From Veillonella parvula (GTDB taxonomy: Bacteria; Bacillota; Negativicutes; Veillonellales; Veillonellaceae): a stretch of 64,000 nucleotides of DNA. The translations under genes and the position numbers were made by a program. The stretch lies in NCBI RefSeq assembly GCF_902810435.1, contig NZ_LR778174.1:1289501-1353500 (forward strand), written 5' to 3'. Within the stretch, counting starts at the first letter, position 1, and each line of letters starts with the position of its first letter. This document shows positions 1 through 37,897 of this stretch, one piece after another. The notes beneath the pieces are model-generated. The model had not been told where the DNA came from. It was given only the letters and a program-made list of their open reading frames with translations, and searched no databases.

Positions 1-786
1 TGCTACGCCACCAGTCATTGTCATGCCTTCATCAGCAGCAAATACCGGGATTTTAGCAGCATCTGTAATTTGTGCCAAGTTAGCCATAGCAGATGCTAAT
101 ACATTATCTGTTGGTGTATAAATAGCTTGCACATCTTGGTTTACAAGATTTGTAGCTGCTTGTTGAATATCATTTACGTTGGAAACAGTTGCCTCTACGA
201 CAGTAATACCTTTTGTAGCAGCATACGCTTTCATTTTTTCAACTTGCAATTGGGAGTTGATTTCAGAGGATGTATAAATGGCACCAATACGCTTTACGTT
301 CGGTACTAATGCTATGATAAGATCAACCTCTTTTTCAACAGGTGTCATGTCGGATGTACCAGATACATTACCACCAGGGCGTTCATTAGATTGAACGAGT
401 TTAGCTGTCACGTAGTCTGTAATAGCTGTACCCATGATTGGCATGTCATGAGAAGCATTTGCCATCGTCTGAGCCGCAGGTGTTGCAATAGCTAATACTA
501 AATCTTTTTTATCAGATACGAAACGTTGTGCAATGCTGTTCAAATTAGATTGGTCAGCCTGTGCATTTTGTTGGTCAATTTTAATATTTTGACCATCTTT
601 ATAACCTTTAGCCGCTAAAGCATCTACGAAGCCCTTATTAGCAGCATCAAGAGATGGATGTTCTACTAATTGAATAACACCAATTTTTTTTTGGTCATTA
701 GTTGCGGTATTGGAACCACAACCGGCTACCATTGCCATAACAGCAATGGCACTAAGTGCCACTGCAATACCTTTTTTCCAGTTCAT
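1..786 (-). CDS. ABC transporter substrate-binding lipoprotein (3' end cut by window edge)
   Basis: Only the first 262 codons are present; the gene runs off the left edge. The N-terminus (MNWKKGIAVALSAIAVMAM, then VAGC) is a lipoprotein signal with the acylated Cys at residue 23. The mature part belongs to the ABC_sub_bind (DUF534/TrpX-like) family of periplasmic binding proteins, shown by GVIQLVEHPSLDAANKGF and an NAQADQSNLNSIAQRFVSD segment. It should sit in the outer leaflet of the inner membrane and pass a small ligand to an ABC permease encoded further left. A ribosome site (TAAGGAGTT) lies 5-6 nt before the ATG at 786. It is a close tandem paralogue of the next gene (24 nt away) and is probably co-transcribed with it. 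The ligand, possibly an aromatic amino acid, cannot be read from sequence. Confidence 0.85.
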   Translation of the reverse strand, partial: MNWKKGIAVALSAIAVMAMVAGCGSNTATNDQKKIGVIQLVEHPSLDAANKGFVDALAAKGYKDGQNIKIDQQNAQADQSNLNSIAQRFVSDKKDLVLAIATPAAQTMANASHDMPIMGTAITDYVTAKLVQSNERPGGNVSGTSDMTPVEKEVDLIIALVPNVKRIGAIYTSSEINSQLQVEKMKAYAATKGITVVEATVSNVNDIQQAATNLVNQDVQAIYTPTDNVLASAMANLAQITDAAKIPVFAADEGMTMTGGVA

Positions 787-810
787 GTATAACTCCTTAC
801 CAGTTATGTA

Positions 811-28491: not shown

Positions 28492-29400
28492 CTAATAATA
28501 GTTTACCCATAAAGGTTGTGTTCCAACAGCCTTTTCAACAGAACTTATCCAATCTGCAACTTCTTGAAGCCTAATTGATAACACTTCATAATCAATAACA
28601 CCTTCATCTGCATCATCCCATAATTTATTCAATGCAGATTTAACTCCCTCTTCAGGAAAAAATACCCCATCATGTTCAAAACTATCAAACAATGCGCCCG
28701 TTCCATTTTTTTCGCAAATTCCATTTGAATTAATTAACCATCCGTCAAAAGTTCTCTTAATTATATATATCTCTTCATGAGCATATCGACGAGTGTAAAC
28801 AATAAATTTCATTTCTCGATTTAAGCTCAAATCACTTTTATTAGACAAAATAATCCCTTCTTTTTTTATCTCAGTTAATAATGCATTTAGACAATCTATA
28901 TTATCATAGAATTTTATTGTATCCACCTCTGGGTCAAGCCTTCTATTAAAAAGTAAATATTTATTAAATATAGGCATATTTCCCCAGTGTAATAACGGTA
29001 ATATACACTCAATTTTTTTTAATATATCTCGGTATTCTTCAGAGTAAAAATTTTTATATCGATTTCGTTTTATATCTTCATAATACCTACCATATATTCT
29101 TATAAAATCAGCTTCTGCAGCGCATAAAGAATCCTTTATAATGGTTCTAGATAAAAATACTTTTTCCAGAAAATTTCTCATAACCGAATTTAGTATAAAT
29201 ACATTACTTTCTTCTGTAAAAAACTCAGAAACGAAGTATTTAAAATCATATTCCTTAAAAGCAAACCAGTTTTTAATTTCTGTTTTTGTAAATATATAAT
29301 TATCAATTATTTCTTTATCAATCAAAAATTTAACTATATTGATTTTAAGATTTCGTATACGCACCTTACTCCATAAACTTTCATTTTCAGAATCACTCAT
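28492..29400 (-). CDS. Unknown protein, last gene of the MBL/STAND/radical SAM operon
   Basis: 302 residues, with no family recognised. The N-terminal 160 residues are helical and basic/aromatic (SKVRIRNLKINIVKFLIDKE). The C-terminal part is acidic and includes REMKFIVYTRRYAHEEIYII and a terminal ADWISSVEKAVGTQPLWVNY. There is no signal peptide or transmembrane segment. It starts 16 nt after the radical SAM gene behind an AAGGTG site and is the 3' gene of the cluster. Base composition is as AT-rich as its partners and unlike the ProX-like gene that follows. It could be an effector, an accessory protein or a modification substrate. Confidence 0.7.
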   Translation of the reverse strand: MSDSENESLWSKVRIRNLKINIVKFLIDKEIIDNYIFTKTEIKNWFAFKEYDFKYFVSEFFTEESNVFILNSVMRNFLEKVFLSRTIIKDSLCAAEADFIRIYGRYYEDIKRNRYKNFYSEEYRDILKKIECILPLLHWGNMPIFNKYLLFNRRLDPEVDTIKFYDNIDCLNALLTEIKKEGIILSNKSDLSLNREMKFIVYTRRYAHEEIYIIKRTFDGWLINSNGICEKNGTGALFDSFEHDGVFFPEEGVKSALNKLWDDADEGVIDYEVLSIRLQEVADWISSVEKAVGTQPLWVNYY

Positions 29401-29416
29401 AATACACCTTAAATAT

Positions 29417-30433
29417 TTACTCTATACAACTAATCGAAAAACACGGACAACCACCATGACAAAATTGATAGTGTTCACAATTCATACATTTGTTCGATTT
29501 AAAAAACAATGTCTTTCTTATCTGATTAAAAACTAAGGAGTTTTGCCAAATCTCCAATAAAGAGGTACTTAAAATACTTTCACCGTTTAACCCTTGACCA
29601 CACATAAACGAACAGGGATAAACCATCCCTTGCTCAGATATAAATGCTGAATACCTTGATGCTTCACAATAATCTACACTCTCTAGAACTAGACTATTTT
29701 TAATCATAGTTAGATGTGATATCATGCAGCTATCAAAACCTACTTGACAACGTGAAAAGTTAATTACATCATATAAAAATGTTGATAATTCTTTTGTTGA
29801 TTTCAAGACAGTTCTTTTCTCTAGACCAACTGGTTTATAATTCAAAAATATTATAGCATTTACCTTATCAATTATTTCTAAATTTAAAAGATCTCTAGCT
29901 TTCGAAATATTATCCGCATCTAATACAAAATGAATATTTACCTTAATATCACGATTAAAACATTCTTCAATAAGTGTTATTGCATTATTATATGGTTCGT
30001 ACCAACTAACGGCCAAAGCACCGCAATATACCTTAGTAGCATCTAGAATTTCTGAAGTCATACCATCTCCATTTGTCGTATATGATGGTATTATATTATT
30101 TTCTCTAGCAATTTTTAAAAAATCAACAAAATCAGGATGTTGGTTGGGATTTCCTCCTCCTAATGCTACTTGAAATACTTTTAATTCTTTTGCTTCATTA
30201 ATGATATCTCTATATAAAGAAGTACTCATATGTTTGCCAACTTTACTAGAATTTCTATAGCAAAATGAACAGTTTCTTTCACAATAATTTGTAATAGAAA
30301 TATCAAGTAATTCTGGACCTGATTTTTTCCAGTTATTACAATTATCAGCTCCATCTAAACGAATAGTTTTTCCAGTATTCTCATCAAATAGAGCTTTATA
30401 ACCATATTTATCACTAATAAAACGCATTACCAT
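29417..30433 (-). CDS. Radical SAM/SPASM-type enzyme
   Basis: 338 residues. The radical SAM cluster motif CERNCSFCY holds Cys51, Cys55 and Cys58. The barrel includes the GGGNP motif (VALGGGNPNQHPDF). The C-terminal third has a SPASM/twitch-type Cys set (YPCSFMCGQG, then CMNCEHYQFCHGGCPC), which binds auxiliary Fe-S clusters. Enzymes of this layout usually modify ribosomally made peptides or proteins, for example by thioether or C-C cross-links. The start is either ATG 30433 or ATG 30427; the latter forms a TAATG junction with the upstream stop. The adjacent NSSSTSF-motif protein is the natural candidate substrate. Confidence 0.85.
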   Translation of the reverse strand: MVMRFISDKYGYKALFDENTGKTIRLDGADNCNNWKKSGPELLDISITNYCERNCSFCYRNSSKVGKHMSTSLYRDIINEAKELKVFQVALGGGNPNQHPDFVDFLKIARENNIIPSYTTNGDGMTSEILDATKVYCGALAVSWYEPYNNAITLIEECFNRDIKVNIHFVLDADNISKARDLLNLEIIDKVNAIIFLNYKPVGLEKRTVLKSTKELSTFLYDVINFSRCQVGFDSCMISHLTMIKNSLVLESVDYCEASRYSAFISEQGMVYPCSFMCGQGLNGESILSTSLLEIWQNSLVFNQIRKTLFFKSNKCMNCEHYQFCHGGCPCFSISCIE

Positions 30434-30840
30434 CCACTAATATTTCCATTAAAGTAAATATCATCCTCACATACTATAAAACTTTCACAACAAAAATATA
30501 CTTCTGCAACTGTCTCAGCATCAGATCGAAATGTACCAAAAAAAACATCTTGACCCATATTTATAAGTTCTGTTACTTTGCTAATAGTATTTTCATTAAA
30601 ACCTTCTTGTTTCAAAAAATTCTCTATATCTATACAATGGGGATCCTCTTTTATAACATCGATAATATTTCTTTTATTTACCTCAATAGAGTCAAATAAA
30701 TCTTCAAAAAACTTATTGAGTATACATTTATTTTCTACTCCAATAGATTCTAGAAAAGAGGACTTATTAAGATCATTTTTTGTAGAAATAATAAATGATG
30801 TAGATGAGCTATTTGTTACAAAACCATTTCTAATCTTCAT
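30427..30840 (-). CDS. Small protein with N-terminal MKIRNGFVTNSSSTSF motif
   Basis: 137 residues. The N-terminus MKIRNGFVTNSSSTSFII matches a recurrent leader-like motif (KIRxGFVxNSSSSSF) that I know from many phage and Clostridia/Negativicutes proteins of unknown function with varied C-terminal parts. The remainder is acidic, with repeated DVIKEDPHCIDIENF-type helices and a Cys pair (VYFCCESFIVCED). It overlaps the upstream gene by 11 nt and the radical SAM gene by up to 7 nt, so the three are translationally coupled. I infer that the Ser/Asn run is a recognition or modification site, but no chemistry is proven. Confidence 0.75.
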   Translation of the reverse strand: MKIRNGFVTNSSSTSFIISTKNDLNKSSFLESIGVENKCILNKFFEDLFDSIEVNKRNIIDVIKEDPHCIDIENFLKQEGFNENTISKVTELINMGQDVFFGTFRSDAETVAEVYFCCESFIVCEDDIYFNGNISGW

Positions 30841-31240
30841 AACTAACCTCTACCAATAACCGATTAATAATTATTAGAATTTCATCATTAAACTCTATAA
30901 GATTCTGTATATTATAGCTATTGCTATAAGGATTTAGCTTCCATAATATCTCATTATCCTTAAAAGATAATTTTTCAATATCCTCATAGTCAATTAATTC
31001 TTTATTGTATAAGAATTGTATAAAAGATGAATACTCATTTTTGTAATATTTTTCATAAAACTCAGTTAAATTTATACCACCTGATAAAATATTATTTAAA
31101 ATGCGCTTAACATAATATTCACCAAAAGAGTCTTTTCGCATTCCACAATTTTTAATTATTTGTTTAATAATAAATTCTGGTGTAATATCTGACTTCACTT
31201 TTAAGTAATATGTTTCATCTAATCTAATAATTATACACAT
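30830..31240 (-). CDS. Unknown small protein in the defence-like operon
   Basis: 136 residues with a beta-hairpin-like start (MCIIIRLDETYYLKVKSD), then helices (GEYYVKRILNNILSGGINLTE) and an Ile-rich C-terminus. The overall pattern, a short protein just before a radical SAM gene, is compatible with a peptide-recognition (RRE-like) or chaperone role. However, no clear PqqD-type signature is visible. It begins 1 nt after the trypsin-STAND stop with a GGGAG site inside that gene and overlaps the NSSSTSF gene by 11 nt. Confidence 0.65.
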   Translation of the reverse strand: MCIIIRLDETYYLKVKSDITPEFIIKQIIKNCGMRKDSFGEYYVKRILNNILSGGINLTEFYEKYYKNEYSSFIQFLYNKELIDYEDIEKLSFKDNEILWKLNPYSNSYNIQNLIEFNDEILIIINRLLVEVSYED

Positions 31241-31241
31241 C

Positions 31242-34019
31242 TTATTTCTCCCATATATTAGTTAGCTGATCAAAAATACTTCTATAATTATCCTCTATTA
31301 TATGAGACTTTAAATTACAAATTCTATTATTACAGTTAGCTTCATTTAAAACTGAAAGAATATCATTCACATTCTTTTTTATAAATATATATGTATTATT
31401 AATACCAACGTATTCTTCAAGTATTTCTAAAGATTCAGATGGAATGATAGAGTAAGCTTTTTGCCATAAGTCATTAATTAAATTGGGCATTATATGATAA
31501 ATAAATATCGATAATTTTAACGCATCAACATAATTTCTTCGCTCTACTAAAATCTCAAAATTATCAATTGATCTTTTAATAAACTCATCACCCAATATCA
31601 CATAATTATTATAACTAAAAGCTTGTTCATATCTATTATTTATTTTAAATGGAAACAACTTTCGAATAATCACATCATATTTTCCAGGAGTTTTAGAAAA
31701 CTCTAGTAAAAAATCAAACAACACATCAATAGAGCTATTTTTAAAATATCCACGATCTCGACGATTTATTAAAAATTTACATATTTGTATACTATAAGGA
31801 CCTCCATTAAAAAGATGCTTCTTCCATAATTGAATATCATCCTCCCTGATATATGAGTCTTCTAAGTTCCATATATTTTTCCAATATATAGAACTATAAT
31901 TTGAATACTTTTTAATGATATTTTCAATTTCTGATGACTCAGTTCTTGATAGGAAAAAGATATACTTTTGTACTCCTTCTAATATACTCCACTTATTATC
32001 ATGCATATCTCTCCAAAATTTTGGGAAAATCTCAGCTGCCTTTTCTAAACGTACTATATATCGAGTCAAACAATAATCACGAAACTCATCAAAAGTAAAG
32101 CTTATTATTTCATCAACATCCTCTACAAATCCCTTTTTTAATCTAAATTCTGTTTTAAAAATTACATCGGATTCCAATAATTGATAAGCAATTTGTAAAT
32201 CTTCTGAATTTAGTTCATCCAATCGTATATGTGAAAATTCTTTAGTATCAATCATAATCTCAGCAATGTGTTCTATAAGTTTATCAAATAGATTTCCATT
32301 AATTTGATTCCCACTATTAATTAACTCTAATTTTTTTAAATCATAATATTTCTGAAATAAAGAATATTTGTATATATCATATAAATGTACTTGACGTTTC
32401 TTTTTATTGACTTCACAAAAAAATCTAAGCAATAGAGTATCTCTAGTTAATTGATCATAGACTGCCTCTGGTAATGTACTTTCTAAAATTTCTACATCAA
32501 AAAACTTTAAATAGCCCTTGAAAATTCTTTTTTTAGATAAATCAGACCTAAATTGCCTCATATTCATTCTACAAAATTGTCTTCCAAAATTATCATCGGA
32601 TAGCATACCGAAACGCTCATCATACTTTTCATTCCTTGTAGATAAAATTATTTTTATATAAGGATACTTTAATAATTCTGAAATTGATGATTTTATATAG
32701 TTTCCAAAATTATTAAGTGTTGTATTTTCATTAAGACCATCAATTACAATAACAATAAAAGTTCCTGTTATCTCCCACAGTTTCATCAATGACTTTTTAA
32801 CATACTCTTTTTCCCATTGATTATTTATAGTAATTACCTCTAATATTTCTGTTGCCGGATTTTCAATAAAGCTTGAAGCATTGAAATAGAATGTTGGAAT
32901 ATTTCTTTTTACAAGAAAATTAGATGTAAAATCACATAAAAAATTAGTTTTACCTTGGCCAGCATTATTAGTAATTACTACTATACGTTTAGAAATAAAC
33001 TCCAAGTAATTAGCTATTTGTTTTAGCTTAAATTCAATAGAATTATTAAACATACTTCTATGAATAAAAAAATCTTCAAGATTCTCTGAATCGTTATAAT
33101 CAATCTTTTTTTTAGCTATTTCAATTATATTAATATAATGTTTTATTTTTGCATCTACATTGCTCAATTGATTAAAAAAATTATTAGGAGAAATTTTTTC
33201 TGAATATTCTGCAAAAGAAATCTCTTCGCCCTTTAAAACTTTATTTATATTTGAATAATCTAATGATTGTAATTCATCAATTGATTTACTTAAAAATAAA
33301 ATTGGATCACTAAAGTATCTCATATTCTCTTTAAAAATATCATCTTCCACAAAGATACTAGGGATATATTTCGCGCTCTTCTTATTTTTTTCAATTTCAC
33401 ATAATGTTTGACTTTTACTAGTATCTAAAAGTTCATCTATATATTTACTTTGAGTAATCGCTTCACCAGGCAAATATTGTCTAAACTTATTTATAGATGT
33501 AAATCCAATTCCCAATACACCAGATTGATCCGTAACTTGTATTTGAACTATCCCCACGGCTCGACTATTAAGAATTATAGGGGATCCAGAAAGACCACTA
33601 TAATCTTGAAGTTTCCCCTTTATAATACTTCCAACTTCATAGTCACAATGTATGAGTGTATTATTACTAGGATATATACCTTTTCCACTTAAAGAATGTT
33701 CTATAAGTAAATATGATCTATAACCTTCTATTTCCACTCTATCTTCTTCAGAAAAAATTTCTTGATCAGTAAAAAATAAAGTATCTGATTGCTCATAAAA
33801 TAAATCTTTAAATTTTAAATCATGTATTTTAATTAATGCTATATCATTACCATGAAAAATAACATCACCCTTAAAAGTTTCATTTAGATATTCAACATTA
33901 ACACGTTCATCAGGTGAAATGACATGTTCAGCCGTAATTACAGTACAACTATCAATTACTATACCGGTACCATACTTTTCAACTTCTTCTTGTTTTATCT
34001 TCACAATATTTGAATACAT
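31242..34019 (-). CDS. Trypsin-like protease - STAND/NACHT-like ATPase fusion
   Basis: 925 residues. Residues 1-190 are a trypsin-fold protease with the triad visible: ITAEHVI (His32), HGNDIALI (Asp59) and SGLSGSPII (Ser144). There is no signal peptide, so it acts in the cytoplasm. Residues about 320-560 are a STAND-type P-loop ATPase with Walker A NAGQGKTN (about 352-359), Walker B IVIVIDGLNEN (Asp427) and sensor ILSTRNE. The C-terminal 360 residues are helical, as expected of a sensor/repeat region. Proteins of this type oligomerise on sensing a ligand and unleash the N-terminal effector. The pairing with an MBL gene 16 nt upstream resembles AVAST type I anti-phage systems. Very low GC. Confidence 0.85.
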   Translation of the reverse strand: MYSNIVKIKQEEVEKYGTGIVIDSCTVITAEHVISPDERVNVEYLNETFKGDVIFHGNDIALIKIHDLKFKDLFYEQSDTLFFTDQEIFSEEDRVEIEGYRSYLLIEHSLSGKGIYPSNNTLIHCDYEVGSIIKGKLQDYSGLSGSPIILNSRAVGIVQIQVTDQSGVLGIGFTSINKFRQYLPGEAITQSKYIDELLDTSKSQTLCEIEKNKKSAKYIPSIFVEDDIFKENMRYFSDPILFLSKSIDELQSLDYSNINKVLKGEEISFAEYSEKISPNNFFNQLSNVDAKIKHYINIIEIAKKKIDYNDSENLEDFFIHRSMFNNSIEFKLKQIANYLEFISKRIVVITNNAGQGKTNFLCDFTSNFLVKRNIPTFYFNASSFIENPATEILEVITINNQWEKEYVKKSLMKLWEITGTFIVIVIDGLNENTTLNNFGNYIKSSISELLKYPYIKIILSTRNEKYDERFGMLSDDNFGRQFCRMNMRQFRSDLSKKRIFKGYLKFFDVEILESTLPEAVYDQLTRDTLLLRFFCEVNKKKRQVHLYDIYKYSLFQKYYDLKKLELINSGNQINGNLFDKLIEHIAEIMIDTKEFSHIRLDELNSEDLQIAYQLLESDVIFKTEFRLKKGFVEDVDEIISFTFDEFRDYCLTRYIVRLEKAAEIFPKFWRDMHDNKWSILEGVQKYIFFLSRTESSEIENIIKKYSNYSSIYWKNIWNLEDSYIREDDIQLWKKHLFNGGPYSIQICKFLINRRDRGYFKNSSIDVLFDFLLEFSKTPGKYDVIIRKLFPFKINNRYEQAFSYNNYVILGDEFIKRSIDNFEILVERRNYVDALKLSIFIYHIMPNLINDLWQKAYSIIPSESLEILEEYVGINNTYIFIKKNVNDILSVLNEANCNNRICNLKSHIIEDNYRSIFDQLTNIWEK

Positions 34020-34035
34020 GTCTTACTCCAAATCA

Positions 34036-35193
34036 TTAAAAGTATATTTTAGATTTCCCAAAATAAGTCTTGTATTTATAAGTTAGCTCTAAATTAGATA
34101 AAATTGCTTTTCTTCTAATATCATAATTAAAATAAAGTTCAGAAACATCCGATTTTATAAGTCTTGCTAAAAATTCGTCTTCAGGGTGATTGCGACGGCC
34201 ATTTGTAGAAATGAATGCTTTATTAAATTTAATATTCTCTAATAAAGCAATATTGGGTTTAGTTGTTCCATGATGAGAAATTTTAACAAAATCATATTTA
34301 TTACTAGCGACTTTAATCCAATCAGAACTTTCAGAATCTGCCATAAAAAGAAATTTTCTACCTTTATATGACATCTCAACAACAATTGATGCACGATTAA
34401 CATCATTCATTGGGGCTAATGAAGATGTTCCAATCCAAGAATCTATATCTATTGGTGATACACCAATTTGTGAGACTGGAATATCAGATATGGCTTCACG
34501 CCCCATACTTAAGAGCATATTTTGTAAAAAAGTTAAAAAATCCTTTTTCTTCAATTCATAATTGGGGCCTAAAGAATCAATACAAACTTTATTAATCCAA
34601 GATTCTAAGTTTAATAATAGTTTTTGATTAGGATTTAAACATCTAATAGAATACTCTCCTTGTTTTAATCTAACACCTTCAACTATTGGTCTTCCATCAT
34701 TGATAGAATTGAGATTATAATGATTTTCTTCACATAGCAATTCAAATGTCTGTGCCAAATTTGCAGAAATCAATCCCGCTCCAGAACCTATGAGACCTAA
34801 AAATTGTTCAAAAACCTTACCATATTTTTCTTCATTTTTACTTGATAATTTCTCGACAACATGTTTTTGTAATATAGTACTATGTTTTATCAGATTAAAA
34901 ATCCCATTAAACCATATTTCTTCAATCTGAATTATATTTGGATTTAAATTATCACCATTATCCTTTAAAAATGAAATAGCCCCTCCAATATGATCTTCAT
35001 CATAATGGGTAATAATAAGAAGCGAAATTACATAATCTTCACTAGATAATCTTAATAATAATGGCTTTAATTCATATTCATACGTTGATTTATATCCACA
35101 ATCAATCAAAATACATCTTTTATTTGCTAATTGTAGAAGCACACAATCTCCAGATTCCGCTTTCAACAAATGAATAATATTACATATATTCAT
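34036..35193 (-). CDS. MBL-fold metallohydrolase, first gene of the defence-like operon
   Basis: 385-residue metallo-beta-lactamase-fold protein. The metal site reads IITHYDEDHIGG (His63, Asp65, Asp67, His68), with Asp in place of the usual second His. Later come FLFMADSESS (bridging Asp) and VKISHHGTTKP (His). The plan resembles the ComEC-type C-terminal MBL domain, whose relatives act on nucleic acids or nucleotides. A 130-residue insert separates the two metal motif groups. It has no signal peptide. It opens a six-gene leftward operon with 16 nt to the trypsin-STAND gene. AGGAA precedes the ATG. Confidence 0.83.
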   Translation of the reverse strand: MNICNIIHLLKAESGDCVLLQLANKRCILIDCGYKSTYEYELKPLLLRLSSEDYVISLLIITHYDEDHIGGAISFLKDNGDNLNPNIIQIEEIWFNGIFNLIKHSTILQKHVVEKLSSKNEEKYGKVFEQFLGLIGSGAGLISANLAQTFELLCEENHYNLNSINDGRPIVEGVRLKQGEYSIRCLNPNQKLLLNLESWINKVCIDSLGPNYELKKKDFLTFLQNMLLSMGREAISDIPVSQIGVSPIDIDSWIGTSSLAPMNDVNRASIVVEMSYKGRKFLFMADSESSDWIKVASNKYDFVKISHHGTTKPNIALLENIKFNKAFISTNGRRNHPEDEFLARLIKSDVSELYFNYDIRRKAILSNLELTYKYKTYFGKSKIYF

Positions 35194-35289: not shown

Positions 35290-36312
35290 TTATTGGGGAA
35301 TTTTATAGGTACCATCAAATACAAATAATTCAGGATGTTCATGTACGAATGATTCTTCATAGATTCCATCATATTCATATACTACATCATCTTTTTTATC
35401 GAGAAAATCGAACAACTCCTCTTCATTTTCCCAGTCTTTCAAAATGGTCCATCGTTCTTCCCTATCAAATGGAATGGACCCACCAAAATAATCGATTACA
35501 GATTGTAAATTATCTGCTAATGGATCCATCTTGAAGAGGCGTAAGCCAGCTAGAGCATCCTTCCATACAATACCCGTAGAGTTATAGAAGAACTGATGAT
35601 GACCACCATTATTAACCTCTGCGAAGTACCAAGATATAGCATTAAGGTATCGCTGTTCTAAAGTAAAACCTTTAGCAGATTCTAAATAGTCATCATAAGA
35701 ACCATAAATATTGATAGTCCAATACGCAGGCTCATTGATAGTCCACATATCATCTGTAGCTTGGATTTCTTCAATAGTAATGGTCCGATGACGAGGTACA
35801 CCTTCTCGTTTCTTCTTTTTCTCTGCTACATAATTGCTATAAGCTTTACATAACTCAGGATACTCTGCTTCACACTGTTCAAAGTCCATCTGCATATAGC
35901 ACATATCAATGACTTCAAAACAGTACGATTTTATATCATCCAGATTCTTTTCCTGAGCTAAACGTACGCCCTGATCTACTAATCTTAGCATCTGTTTCAT
36001 AATATCTGATGTATACGATTCATTATTATCTAAAGCAATGGCTCCATACGCATAGGCACAGCGATAATACCACACCGCATCACGATATTTTTCATCAATA
36101 GACTCTAATACCTTAATTGCCTCTTTTTCATTGCCATTATTGTTATAAGCTCTACCGAGCTCACCTAACAGAGATATAGATAAATTTTCTGTGCCCACAC
36201 TAGTTAACACATCAATAATAGTTTCTACTTGTTCAGTATCATTAAGATCTTTAACAGTTTGTAATTGCTCTATATCAGAAAGTGCTTTAAATTGTTCAAC
36301 CGTTAATGTCAT
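35290..36312 (-). CDS. TPR-like / DUF4375-domain protein (immunity-like)
   Basis: 340 residues. Residues about 35-165 form TPR-type helical repeats (LLGELGRAYNNNGNEKEAIK, VWYYRCAYAYGAIA). The C-terminal half contains YLNAISWYFAEVNNGGHHQF, characteristic of DUF4375 (DMP19-type). DUF4375 proteins often sit in bacterial immunity-gene arrays, where they may neutralise contact-dependent or secreted toxins. The TPR module is clearly homologous to that in the next upstream gene, so the two arose by duplication with exchange of end domains. AGGATG precedes the ATG. Confidence 0.78.
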   Translation of the reverse strand: MTLTVEQFKALSDIEQLQTVKDLNDTEQVETIIDVLTSVGTENLSISLLGELGRAYNNNGNEKEAIKVLESIDEKYRDAVWYYRCAYAYGAIALDNNESYTSDIMKQMLRLVDQGVRLAQEKNLDDIKSYCFEVIDMCYMQMDFEQCEAEYPELCKAYSNYVAEKKKKREGVPRHRTITIEEIQATDDMWTINEPAYWTINIYGSYDDYLESAKGFTLEQRYLNAISWYFAEVNNGGHHQFFYNSTGIVWKDALAGLRLFKMDPLADNLQSVIDYFGGSIPFDREERWTILKDWENEEELFDFLDKKDDVVYEYDGIYEESFVHEHPELFVFDGTYKIPQ

Positions 36313-36368
36313 TATGCCACATCCTGTCGTATTACAAATATAGTCTTATAGTTAACATTATTTAGAAA

Positions 36369-37274
36369 CTAGCTACCACAAACAATAAAGAATACAGGTA
36401 TACTATCTTCATTATCTATAAGTCCGTAACCTTCACATTCATGACCTTCGTATTCAATACCTTCAAAGAATACGTGATCACCAAGTTCTTTATTAGCCAT
36501 TAAATTATGCAATTTAAAGAGCAATTCTTCTCTAGTAAAATATGTACCATTATCCGCCACAAGATGAGCCATAATTTCTACCTGCCACATGCCATCTTCT
36601 TTATCTTCTTCAAGTAATTCCTCATCGGTAACACGTTCATTATCAAAAAGTTGATCTTCACTTTCAATCCAAGCTTCATAGGTTACTAGAATTTCCGGTT
36701 CTTCTAATCTATCGTCGTCATCTGCTTCATCATCTACATATTTCTTTACATTTTCATTGTATTCTTTGGAAAACTCTTCTCTGCTATATGTTTGCTTATT
36801 AAATACCCAATGTACTACATCATATGTAGGATAGTTATCTTCTTCGCATTCATTAATATCTCCAGTAACTTTACCTTCCGTAGTAGCTTTACCTTCTGTA
36901 GTATCTTTACTATTTTTCTTATCAAAAAGATTCTTAATGGTTTCAAATATCACAGGATAATCCTCCTTGTACTCTTTTGGCTTAATTTTAAATAGTTGAT
37001 ACTTTACTACTTCACAGCACCAACCAAGCTGTTTATCTAAGTGAGCTTCTTTCGTCATTTTTATGCCTGTCTCTATTAACTGTAATGCCTTCTGTACATG
37101 TTCAGATTCGTAACATTCACCACATCCTAACATCGCATGAGCATAGCCACAACGATAATACCAAGACCAATCACGATGTGCCTCATCTATACGATTAAAT
37201 AAATCGATAGCCTCTGCTGCCCGTCCATTATTGTTATACATACGTCCTAAGGTGCTTAGCAATATAGAGGACAA
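36369..37274 (-). CDS. 3' part of a frameshifted SUKH-TPR protein (TPR region and unknown C-terminal domain)
   Basis: 301 residues from a TTG with no ribosome site. It opens in mid-repeat (ILLSTLGRMYNNNGRAAEAI) and aligns with residue 45 onward of the paralogue at 35.3-36.3 kb. The homologous residues that precede it (NNIGIDNLSS) are readable just upstream in the same frame but have no start. It is therefore the second half of the gene beginning at 37897. The C-terminal 100 residues (MAHLVADNGTYFTREELLFK, HVFFEGIEYEGHECEGYGL) differ from the paralogue and are unassigned. An acidic linker (DDEADDDDRLEEPE) lies between. It is probably not translated efficiently as such. Confidence 0.6.
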   Translation of the reverse strand: MSSILLSTLGRMYNNNGRAAEAIDLFNRIDEAHRDWSWYYRCGYAHAMLGCGECYESEHVQKALQLIETGIKMTKEAHLDKQLGWCCEVVKYQLFKIKPKEYKEDYPVIFETIKNLFDKKNSKDTTEGKATTEGKVTGDINECEEDNYPTYDVVHWVFNKQTYSREEFSKEYNENVKKYVDDEADDDDRLEEPEILVTYEAWIESEDQLFDNERVTDEELLEEDKEDGMWQVEIMAHLVADNGTYFTREELLFKLHNLMANKELGDHVFFEGIEYEGHECEGYGLIDNEDSIPVFFIVCGS

Positions 37275-37285
37275 ATTATCGATGC

Positions 37286-37897
37286 CTATATTATTAACAG
37301 CTCCATCGCACGCTTGATATCGATATCCTCTTGACCATTAAGGAACTTAACCTTTTCCGCATCACTTAATTCTTGAAACTCTTCGTTCGTAATGTCTTCT
37401 ATACTGATATATAAGCCCTTAATAAAATCACCAAAGTTATCTGCTAATAGAGTAATTGAGTAATCACATTCTTGGTCTACACGGACAACCTTAGGTTCGC
37501 CTATAGGACCACACTCACGATAATCGAGGAAAATCATGTCATGCCCACCAGAAATCGTATCGGCTACAACGACACCGATAGGGGGATATTTTACTTTCGA
37601 AATCCAAAATTCATTCCCTATCTCACCTAAAAGAGAGTATTTCTTATCTCTATCGATGCCATATATACCTGTTATATATACACAATCCCTATTATCATTG
37701 ATAAAACAATTTTTATTTACTACACCACCATTATGGTTTTTAAGTAACTCAATATAAGCTGCCGGCAATGTATACCCTAGATTTGCTTCAGCTGCTTTAA
37801 TATCCTCATCAGTAACAGGTTTACCTATATAGGATTCAAATGCATAATCAACATCGTTCCAAAATCCGTTCCAATCAAAGTCTTTTAGATTACTCAT
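37286..37897 (-). CDS. 5' part of a frameshifted SUKH-TPR protein (SMI1/KNR4 immunity domain)
   Basis: 203 residues. Residues 1-160 are an SMI1/KNR4 (SUKH) domain: AEANLGYTLPAAYIELLKNH followed by NGG, then YPPIGVVVADTISGGHDMIF. SUKH proteins are immunity factors against toxin domains of polymorphic and contact-dependent systems. The last 40 residues (FQELSDAEKVKFLNGQEDID) match the N-terminus of the TPR paralogue at 35.3 kb. The frame is then lost at LLII-stop, while the TPR continues in another frame from 37292 or so. One missing base would restore a protein of about 509 residues. AGGAGAG precedes the ATG. Confidence 0.72.
   Translation of the reverse strand: MSNLKDFDWNGFWNDVDYAFESYIGKPVTDEDIKAAEANLGYTLPAAYIELLKNHNGGVVNKNCFINDNRDCVYITGIYGIDRDKKYSLLGEIGNEFWISKVKYPPIGVVVADTISGGHDMIFLDYRECGPIGEPKVVRVDQECDYSITLLADNFGDFIKGLYISIEDITNEEFQELSDAEKVKFLNGQEDIDIKRAMELLII

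Follow-up and report, generated by a model that had tools for sequence, protein, structure and literature searches.

The minus-strand gene run in Veillonella parvula

The DNA analyzed here is a stretch of 64,000 nucleotides from Veillonella parvula (NCBI RefSeq assembly GCF_902810435.1, contig NZ_LR778174.1, positions 1,289,501 to 1,353,500 of the forward strand), which in its full length is called the window below. Our subject is a short conserved N-terminal sequence, the tag, of a protein of 137 amino acids (aa) encoded in this window, together with the adjoining gene for a radical S-adenosylmethionine (SAM) protein. Both genes are part of a run of six genes on the minus strand, coding for a metallo-beta-lactamase-fold (MBL) hydrolase, a trypsin-NACHT protein, a 136-aa protein, the tag protein, the radical SAM protein and a 302-aa protein. 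The features are listed with the evidence for each in brackets; the bacterial loci are those described in the next section.

34036..35193, minus strand: MBL-fold hydrolase, Avs1a/LmuA-like (Pfam, NCBIfam, PADLOC)
31242..34019, minus strand: trypsin-like and NACHT STAND protein, 925 aa, Avs-like (Pfam, PADLOC, relatives in 66 of 80 bacterial loci)
30830..31240, minus strand: small cassette protein, 136 aa (same position in plasmid cassettes)
30427..30840, minus strand: tag protein, 137 aa, with a C-terminal Trp (open reading frame, homologues)
30793..30840, minus strand: N-terminal tag MKIRNGFVTNSSSTSF, residues 1-16 of the tag protein (85 homologues and dissimilar phage proteins)
29417..30433, minus strand: radical SAM/SPASM protein, putative maturase, 338 aa (Pfam)
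28492..29400, minus strand: 302-aa protein downstream of the radical SAM gene (relatives in 12 of 80 bacterial loci)

A first-pass annotation of this DNA had placed a conserved motif at the very N-terminus of the tag protein and described it as overlapping the radical SAM gene. The motif is indeed found there, as MKIRNGFVTNSSSTSF opens the 137-residue open reading frame (ORF), the N-terminus of the protein being MKIRNGFVTNSSSTSFIIS. The two ORFs also share 7 nt, but at the 3′ end of the tag gene and not at the N-terminus of its product. The window contains a single copy of the motif, and in the host genome (2,146,482 bases) the one clear match is the window tag itself (E 1.1e-12), a second match reaching only E 0.065 over ten profile positions. 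Among 85 aligned homologues of the tag protein N10, S11, S12 and T14 are invariant and C117 is nearly so. Given these invariant residues, the single occurrence in the window and the single clear match in the genome, we regard the window tag as not due to chance.

An AlphaFold2 model of the tag protein (85 rows, pLDDT 87.9) shows a body of helices and a few strands. Residues 1-7 are modelled with a pLDDT below 50 and residues 13-20 form strand 1, so that the tag is predicted to be a loose N-terminal tail running into the first strand. With this model a fold search in PDB and BFVD gave no match at E<=0.001. The two Pfam matches of the window protein are both below cut-off, and NCBIfam (June 2026) and PADLOC list no family for it at E<=1. 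A known Pfam family was rejected, as the 85 members gave just four chance-like matches with one member each. Whole-protein kinship to phage records was likewise dismissed, there being no match of the window protein up to E 10; the tag alone is common in these records. The unnamed family phrog_7397 of PHROGs matches all nine tag proteins scanned (E 1e-14 to 0.012), and in eight of the nine the match is confined to the first 18-41 residues.

The neighbouring gene had been named as that of a SPASM enzyme, and the profile searches bear this out. The window enzyme scores 49 bits with the Radical_SAM family of Pfam (cut-off 29.5), 28.4 bits with PF13186 for the SPASM domain (cut-off 21.5) and 38.2 bits with TIGR04085, also for SPASM (cut-off 27), and C51, C55 and C58 are invariant as aligned in 107 rows. 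By its sequence the enzyme is a SPASM radical SAM protein with the three-cysteine core and a C-terminal SPASM domain. No maturase model reached its cut-off among the 25 of 66 NCBIfam families shown, the best being MftC with 93.8 bits against 265; for a viral relative (the first of 18) three families were found, all far below cut-off. The AlphaFold2 model of the enzyme (107 rows) has a pLDDT of 93.5. Its closest folds in the PDB are SuiB (E 5e-16), PqqE, SkfB, the sactipeptide thioether enzyme 5why, which we take to be CteB, and TigE; BtrN, anSME, AbmM, DesII and viperin rank lower, so that enzymes acting on small molecules are listed as well. A RiPP recognition element (RRE; RiPP, ribosomally synthesized and post-translationally modified peptide) of usual size was not seen in this model, where the barrel begins after about 40 residues that include short strands; no search with RRE profiles was made and the neighbouring genes were not checked for one.

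Tag and radical SAM enzyme in bacteria and viruses

A tblastn search of plasmids with the radical SAM protein revealed a subfamily with 41-43% identity in Agrobacterium, Rhodobacter and Rhizobium. The four plasmid loci that were read have the same gene order, namely a SMEK-NACHT gene, a protein of about 121 aa, a tag protein of about 131 aa and the radical SAM gene; the NACHT gene is split in one plasmid cassette (L005). For a wider survey a profile (A1) was built from five radical SAM proteins, and the best 80 of the 102 stretches matched in 84,980 species genomes were kept as bacterial loci. They span Bacillota, Bacteroidota, Pseudomonadota, Campylobacterota, Chloroflexota, Cyanobacteriota, Planctomycetota, Verrucomicrobiota, Acidobacteriota and others, and one locus of the species-genome set is labelled archaeal.

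A tag ORF is present in 74 of these 80 loci. In five of the six others (L139, L156, L166, L182 and L192) the radical SAM gene is less than 500 bases from a contig end; in the sixth (L135) 8 kb upstream are without a tag and the contig stops about 650 bases past the radical SAM gene. Within the class to which the host belongs, 300 genomes were searched. Eight of them match the radical SAM profile at E<=1e-15. The tag profile matches ten at E<=0.01, seven of these at E<=2.1e-5. The seven clear tag genomes are all among the eight with the radical SAM gene, and the two matches lie 24 to 378 bases apart. The three weak tag matches (E 0.007-0.0099) are partial and their frames are unlike tag genes. 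The eighth radical SAM genome (G321; E 1.1e-16 over 132 of 344 positions, in an ORF of 484 aa) has no tag match. Thus the enrichment of radical SAM neighbours, which the first-pass annotation had proposed to check, is strong and specific to one radical SAM family. The tags of the seven genomes include the variants NSSSVSF (twice), NSSSANF and NSSSSCF, with other sequences behind some of them. We therefore consider N10-S11-S12-S13 together with F16 as the firm part of the tag.

Relatives of the Avs-like NACHT protein are found in 66 of the 80 bacterial loci, and in all 66 the small cassette protein is matched at E<=0.01 (in L165 a single open frame contains both this match and that of the NACHT protein). 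The first 330 residues of 63 NACHT proteins were scanned. One is the window protein, and 62 come from the 66 loci, of which four were excluded because their frames are shorter than 2.2 kb. At E<=0.01 the N-termini are SMEK in 20, trypsin-like in 19, TIR in two, and nucleoside phosphorylase (PNP) and alpha/beta hydrolase in one each. Judged by these domains the cassette has what defines Avs-like STAND defence in the broad sense, a STAND core with a swappable effector domain. MBL relatives are encoded upstream in 19 loci, all within the 20 that have the trypsin-type NACHT protein; in the twentieth (L131) the contig starts just ahead of the NACHT frame. The 12 loci with relatives of the 302-aa protein are also all among these 20. 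In ten metagenome-assembled genomes labelled Deltaproteobacteria the examined stretches, some of them short, showed no NACHT relative; eight of these genomes carry one to four tag genes (L137, L141, L142, L144, L146, L148, L149 and L152), and here 16 of 23 tag proteins have a C-terminal Tyr, not Trp.

The tag proteins are not short precursor peptides of the RiPP type. Those of the NACHT cassettes are 131-140 aa long in 64 of 66 loci and 107 aa in two, and those of viruses range from 33 to 327 aa (231 complete proteins, median 134). Trp is the last residue of 64 of the 66 cassette proteins. The remaining two are the forms of 107 codons, which belong to L150 and L158 and are perhaps frameshifted. 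RiPP precursors consist of an N-terminal leader and a C-terminal core, and the tag proteins could be laid out in the same way. The tag would then be a docking leader only and the enzyme would modify its substrates elsewhere, for example near the C-terminus, at the terminal Trp or at motifs specific to single phage families. The conserved Trp and the nearly invariant C117 speak for such a core. The C-terminal residues of the viral proteins, however, are varied (Gly in 44, His in 40, Tyr in 29, and others) and the proteins belong to many sequence clusters, among which a common core is hard to see, and we consider this explanation unlikely.

The first-pass annotation had also held that the same N-terminus recurs in many unrelated phage proteins with variable C-terminal parts. 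We searched viral sequences with the degenerate pattern M-K-x-x-x-[GD]-F-[VI]-x-N followed by five S/T-type codons and F, by which the positions inside the pattern are biased. At least 120 viral stretches contain it, with 241 tag-bearing frames, some of them cut at the end of the locus; a slightly wider rule gives 247 frames in these stretches, and a decoy pattern of similar, somewhat stricter composition was found in no viral stretch. The C-terminal parts (residues 23 on) of 305 complete and distinct viral and bacterial tag proteins of at least 60 aa were then clustered by BLAST (E 1e-4, at least 30 columns). This gave 80 clusters, an upper figure for unrelated parts since distant kinship escapes BLAST; 54 are singletons, and 85 bacterial and 13 viral proteins make up the largest. 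Both the recurrence and the variable remainder are thus confirmed. Within one phage the Ser codons of different tags switch between AGY and TCN, so that the tag is conserved as protein and not as DNA.

The association with the radical SAM enzyme extends to viruses. Among 40 tag-bearing viral records 28 carry a member of the enzyme family, with a best E of 2.8e-28 or lower in each; the record of L095, one of these 28, carries a tag protein of the cassette type. The family was found in none of 21 viral control records (E<=1e-10) and the tag profile in none of them either. These control searches hold no positive control within them; the same profiles do match the tag records and the radical SAM-selected records, respectively. 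The generic profile PF04055 was discarded as a detector because it missed family members (27 of the 40 tag records matched, 22 over cut-off), and the family profile was used. In many viral enzymes the first two core cysteines are spaced more widely, with CX7CX6C in one clade, and this may be why PF04055 misses some of them. Such odd spacing was noted in L301-L304, L308, L318 and other viral genes. In L301 (1428-3314) the radical SAM frame is continuous with what by eye resembles a GIY-YIG-type endonuclease, in one open frame of 629 aa, a fusion or an insertion.

In the opposite direction, a query alignment (A5) of 18 enzymes from tag phages was used, and the best 80 of 97 viral radical SAM loci were kept. 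In 63 of them a tag lies inside the flanks of up to 10 kb, and all 208 tags are on the strand of the radical SAM gene. No tag was found in 62 control loci (485 kb as compared to 1,523 kb of radical SAM loci), nor in letter-shuffled copies. For 14 of the remaining 17 loci tags occur elsewhere in the record, so that 77 of the 80 records have tags. Thirty of the 80 had already been in the tag scan, some within the query alignment; the other 50 have a tag nearby in 34 cases and somewhere in the record in 47.

Phages grown in the laboratory give the same picture. Among 50,697 phage records, the tag protein RB16p111 of phage RB16 matches 175 (E<=1) and the RB16 radical SAM protein 174 (E<=1e-5), 170 of them across at least 80% of its length. 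The tallies for tag protein and enzyme are 115 and 112 for Klebsiella, 20 and 20 for Enterobacter, 14 and 14 for Cronobacter, 11 and 11 for Citrobacter and 9 and 9 for Escherichia; these are tallies by organism and not lists of records. By name nearly all matches are RB43-like. No Vibrio record is in the RB16 tag-protein tally. Vibrio phage D479 was found through its radical SAM gene; the 42 kb of it that were read encode five tag proteins, their genes being located about 1.4 to 10 kb from the radical SAM gene with other genes in between. In RB16 and in Lw1, for which E. coli BL21(DE3) is recorded as host, both tag genes are about 19-23 kb away from it. The two tag genes of RB16 flank a gene for a vWA-domain protein of 739 aa (RB16p109, L300 3921-6140), and Lw1 has a gene of equal length there.

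These distances bear on the possibility that the linkage is merely an inherited neighbourhood, tag and enzyme having spread jointly as a module without a working relation. The cassette does occur as a block across many phyla. Mere neighbourhood is argued against by the distances in RB16 and Lw1 and by the genes between in D479. In addition, tag variants are common to a locus though the viral tag proteins fall into many clusters (see below). We regard this explanation as very improbable.

Matched variation of tag and enzyme

A reader acting in trans would select tags that fit the enzyme of their own genome, and matched variation would then be expected on any carrier protein. For 61 viral loci with at least two tags (188 tags, 256 pairs) we determined the agreement of tag residues within a locus and compared it with 1000 shuffles of the tags among loci. 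The agreement is 0.973, 0.992 and 0.973 at positions 4, 6 and 9, the shuffled means being 0.818, 0.572 and 0.597, and none of the 1000 shuffles reaches the observed values. At positions 14 and 15 agreement is likewise above every shuffle, and at position 5 above every shuffle but one; positions 17 and 18 show no excess. The shuffle figure should not be read as a probability, as some tags of one locus are on related proteins and the loci are not independent. The type of tag also follows the enzyme. Near the radical SAM clade L302-L304 and near L301 all 16 tags have D6/T9, whereas the 67 tags in the other 23 viral stretches, some of which are without a tag, all have S9 and never D6.

In a quick tree of the radical SAM proteins the 81 bacterial sequences group together (branch value 97) and are joined by this three-member viral clade (branch value 100), while the 23 other viral sequences spread across the root, the viral rows being one side of the branch valued 97. 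The tree is unrooted, with a midpoint used for drawing and no outgroup; L301 was omitted as too long, and the program warned of the long branch of L320. An origin of the immune cassette's pair in a captured phage module would fit this tree.

The tag could also be a targeting or structural element, either for packaging into the virion or as the first strand of a fast-evolving shared fold, with the radical SAM gene linked in some other way. The internal proteins of phage T4, which share an N-terminal capsid-targeting sequence, are a precedent for the former, and for the latter residues 13-20 are strand 1 in the model, with distant kinship of the C-terminal parts possibly escaping the BLAST clustering. 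The same enzyme family, however, accompanies the tag in the bacterial cassettes, where NACHT protein, small protein, tag protein and radical SAM protein are conserved together. Moreover, tags of one locus match at positions 4, 6 and 9, which precede the strand, and positions 6 and 9 also go with the radical SAM clade. We consider a purely targeting or structural role quite improbable.

Taken together, it appears probable to us that the tag is a portable N-terminal element which is recognized, and most probably modified, by a dedicated SPASM radical SAM enzyme acting in trans. In most bacterial cassettes one enzyme would serve one tag protein; in phages one enzyme would serve several dissimilar tagged proteins, often encoded in tandem. 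The sequences show the co-occurrence of the two, the layout of one enzyme for several tag proteins, their matched variation and the class of the enzyme; that the enzyme binds the tag and modifies it is what we infer from this.

Possible mechanism, related systems and meaning

The modification would most likely be within the tag, this being the only part that the substrates are seen to share. The tryptic peptide from residue 5, NGFVTNSSSTSFIISTK in the window protein and SGFVSNSSSSSFIVR in RB16p111, includes the candidate residues. Among 71 distinct bacterial tags position 7 is F in 65 and Y in six, and position 9 is T in 49 and S in 22; an aromatic-x-x motif, a trait of triceptide (3-CyFE) substrates, is present in the tag. 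Our guess at the chemistry is an event of -2 Da, a three-residue cyclophane between Phe7 and Ser/Thr9 in F-V-[ST]. The event could also be the oxidation of a Ser, or the Asn-Ser run could be oxidized or cross-linked. The cyclophane is suggested because links between Phe C4 and Ser C-beta have been reported for MscB (PMC11002830). A further reason is that an FxSxx peptide occurs together with a radical SAM-SPASM protein in conflict systems already described. These are the ternary VMAP systems, which are reported to comprise the radical SAM-SPASM protein, the FxSxx peptide and an AP-ATPase effector (Kaur et al. 2020; PMC7159879). They resemble the cassette in being conflict systems with a radical SAM-SPASM gene. 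In the VMAP systems a peptidase acts on the peptide with the motif, which is C-terminal; the cassette differs in that its tag is N-terminal, that it has a NACHT protein and that there are counterparts in phages.

Other known systems share single traits with the one described here. As in the pairs SuiA/SuiB, PqqA/PqqE and MftA/MftC a SPASM radical SAM gene adjoins the gene of the presumed substrate, and the predicted fold is closest to those of SuiB and PqqE; unlike the SuiA, PqqA and MftA peptides, the substrates presumed here are whole proteins with a length of about 100-180 aa, and in phages there are several of them for one enzyme. The residues modelled ahead of the barrel appear to be too few for an RRE of usual size. 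With the enzymes of triceptides and three-residue cyclophanes (XncB, OscB, MscB) the tag has the F-x-[ST] motif in common; here, in contrast, the motif is at the N-terminus of larger proteins and the cross-link is a guess from the sequence. In prochlorosin-type systems a conserved N-terminal leader precedes a variable remainder and one promiscuous maturase acts on all the precursors, the products being lanthipeptides. The layout of one enzyme for many substrates is the same, but the substrates here are larger proteins and the enzyme is a radical SAM protein. The AVAST (Avs) systems, above all type 1, also have an MBL hydrolase beside a trypsin-STAND protein, and the core is Avs2-like in the window STAND protein and in all seven relatives scanned.

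By PADLOC and NCBIfam the window STAND protein is Avs2/Avs1b-like (PADLOC Avs2, E 1.2e-17), its NACHT and Trypsin_2 domains having Pfam scores below cut-off. In contrast to AVAST type 1 the scores with the Avs1a and Avs1b models are far below cut-off, the window hydrolase reaching 180.6 bits of 420 with NF041809 (MBL protein) and the STAND protein 20.5 bits of 1500 with NF041810 (protease-STAND protein), and the cassette has additional genes including those of the tag protein and the radical SAM protein. In V. parvula the cassette looks acquired, because the radical SAM profile matches none of the 13 same-genus genomes listed in the search of the class. Upstream of it, at window 35290-37897, a DMP19/TPR protein, a TPR-like protein and a SUKH (SMI1/KNR4) protein are encoded. 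Gene sets of this kind are seen in toxin-immunity clusters, and the region may be a conflict island. The sole tRNA call in the window (ARAGORN, 692-787, minus strand, anticodon tta, which reads TAA) is perhaps a false call or a relic.

In bacteria the pair of tag and enzyme is built into an Avs-like STAND cassette. The host has one tag protein there and a putative maturase for it, next to a STAND protein that bears an effector domain, and this arrangement suggests that the tag protein is a bait; phages with the same tag and enzyme would be its natural triggers. The cassette tag protein would probably be the sensed component, and tag proteins of a phage, or their maturase, would perturb it and thereby release the NACHT effector. 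That there is a general protein tag-and-maturase system, in which many phages mark a large number of unrelated accessory proteins with the one N-terminal tag for modification by their own radical SAM enzyme, and that bacterial STAND cassettes use the same pair as bait for sensing such phages, is a more tentative proposal, to which we would give slightly less than an even chance.

Several points weigh against our main interpretation. Twelve of the 40 tag-bearing viral records have no detected radical SAM protein of the family; a broader profile, in a search without a positive control of its own, adds none in these 12, and one of these records, possibly incomplete, is 214 kb long. Conversely, three of the 80 viral radical SAM records (14.7, 24.6 and 38.5 kb long) are without a tag. 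The queries, A5 with its tag-phage enzymes and A1 with its five tag-bearing cassettes, favour relatives of the tag type, only the best 80 of each list having been kept. At tag positions 3, 13 and 16 agreement within the viral loci is not in excess of the shuffles, and a Mantel test of radical SAM distance against tag type over 63 loci showed no relation (r 0.099, 174 of 2000), with 61 of the 63 being G6/S9. Possibly the conservation is in part structural, since the C-terminal half of the tag is predicted as strand 1. Finally, the modification of the tag is itself something that we infer, and the sensing model is drawn entirely from gene content.

Both halves of the system, a SPASM maturase with its substrate and a STAND cassette, have known models, and a tag used across phages would go beyond these if the modification is proven. 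Among the papers listed in searches of the open-licence literature of PubMed Central, none describes the tag as far as the listings tell. Radical SAM maturases are best known for acting on single peptides. Here one enzyme family accompanies a tag whose carrier proteins fall into about 80 sequence clusters. They occur in immune-like cassettes of many phyla and in phages grown in the laboratory, among them RB16 and Lw1 on E. coli. Should the tag prove to be modified, tag and enzyme together would be ready-made for the tagging of proteins, a group of phage proteins now called hypothetical would be explained and there would be a concrete guess for the trigger of an Avs-like cassette. The general reading, if true, would amount to a novel kind of protein tagging and a novel trigger for bacterial immunity.

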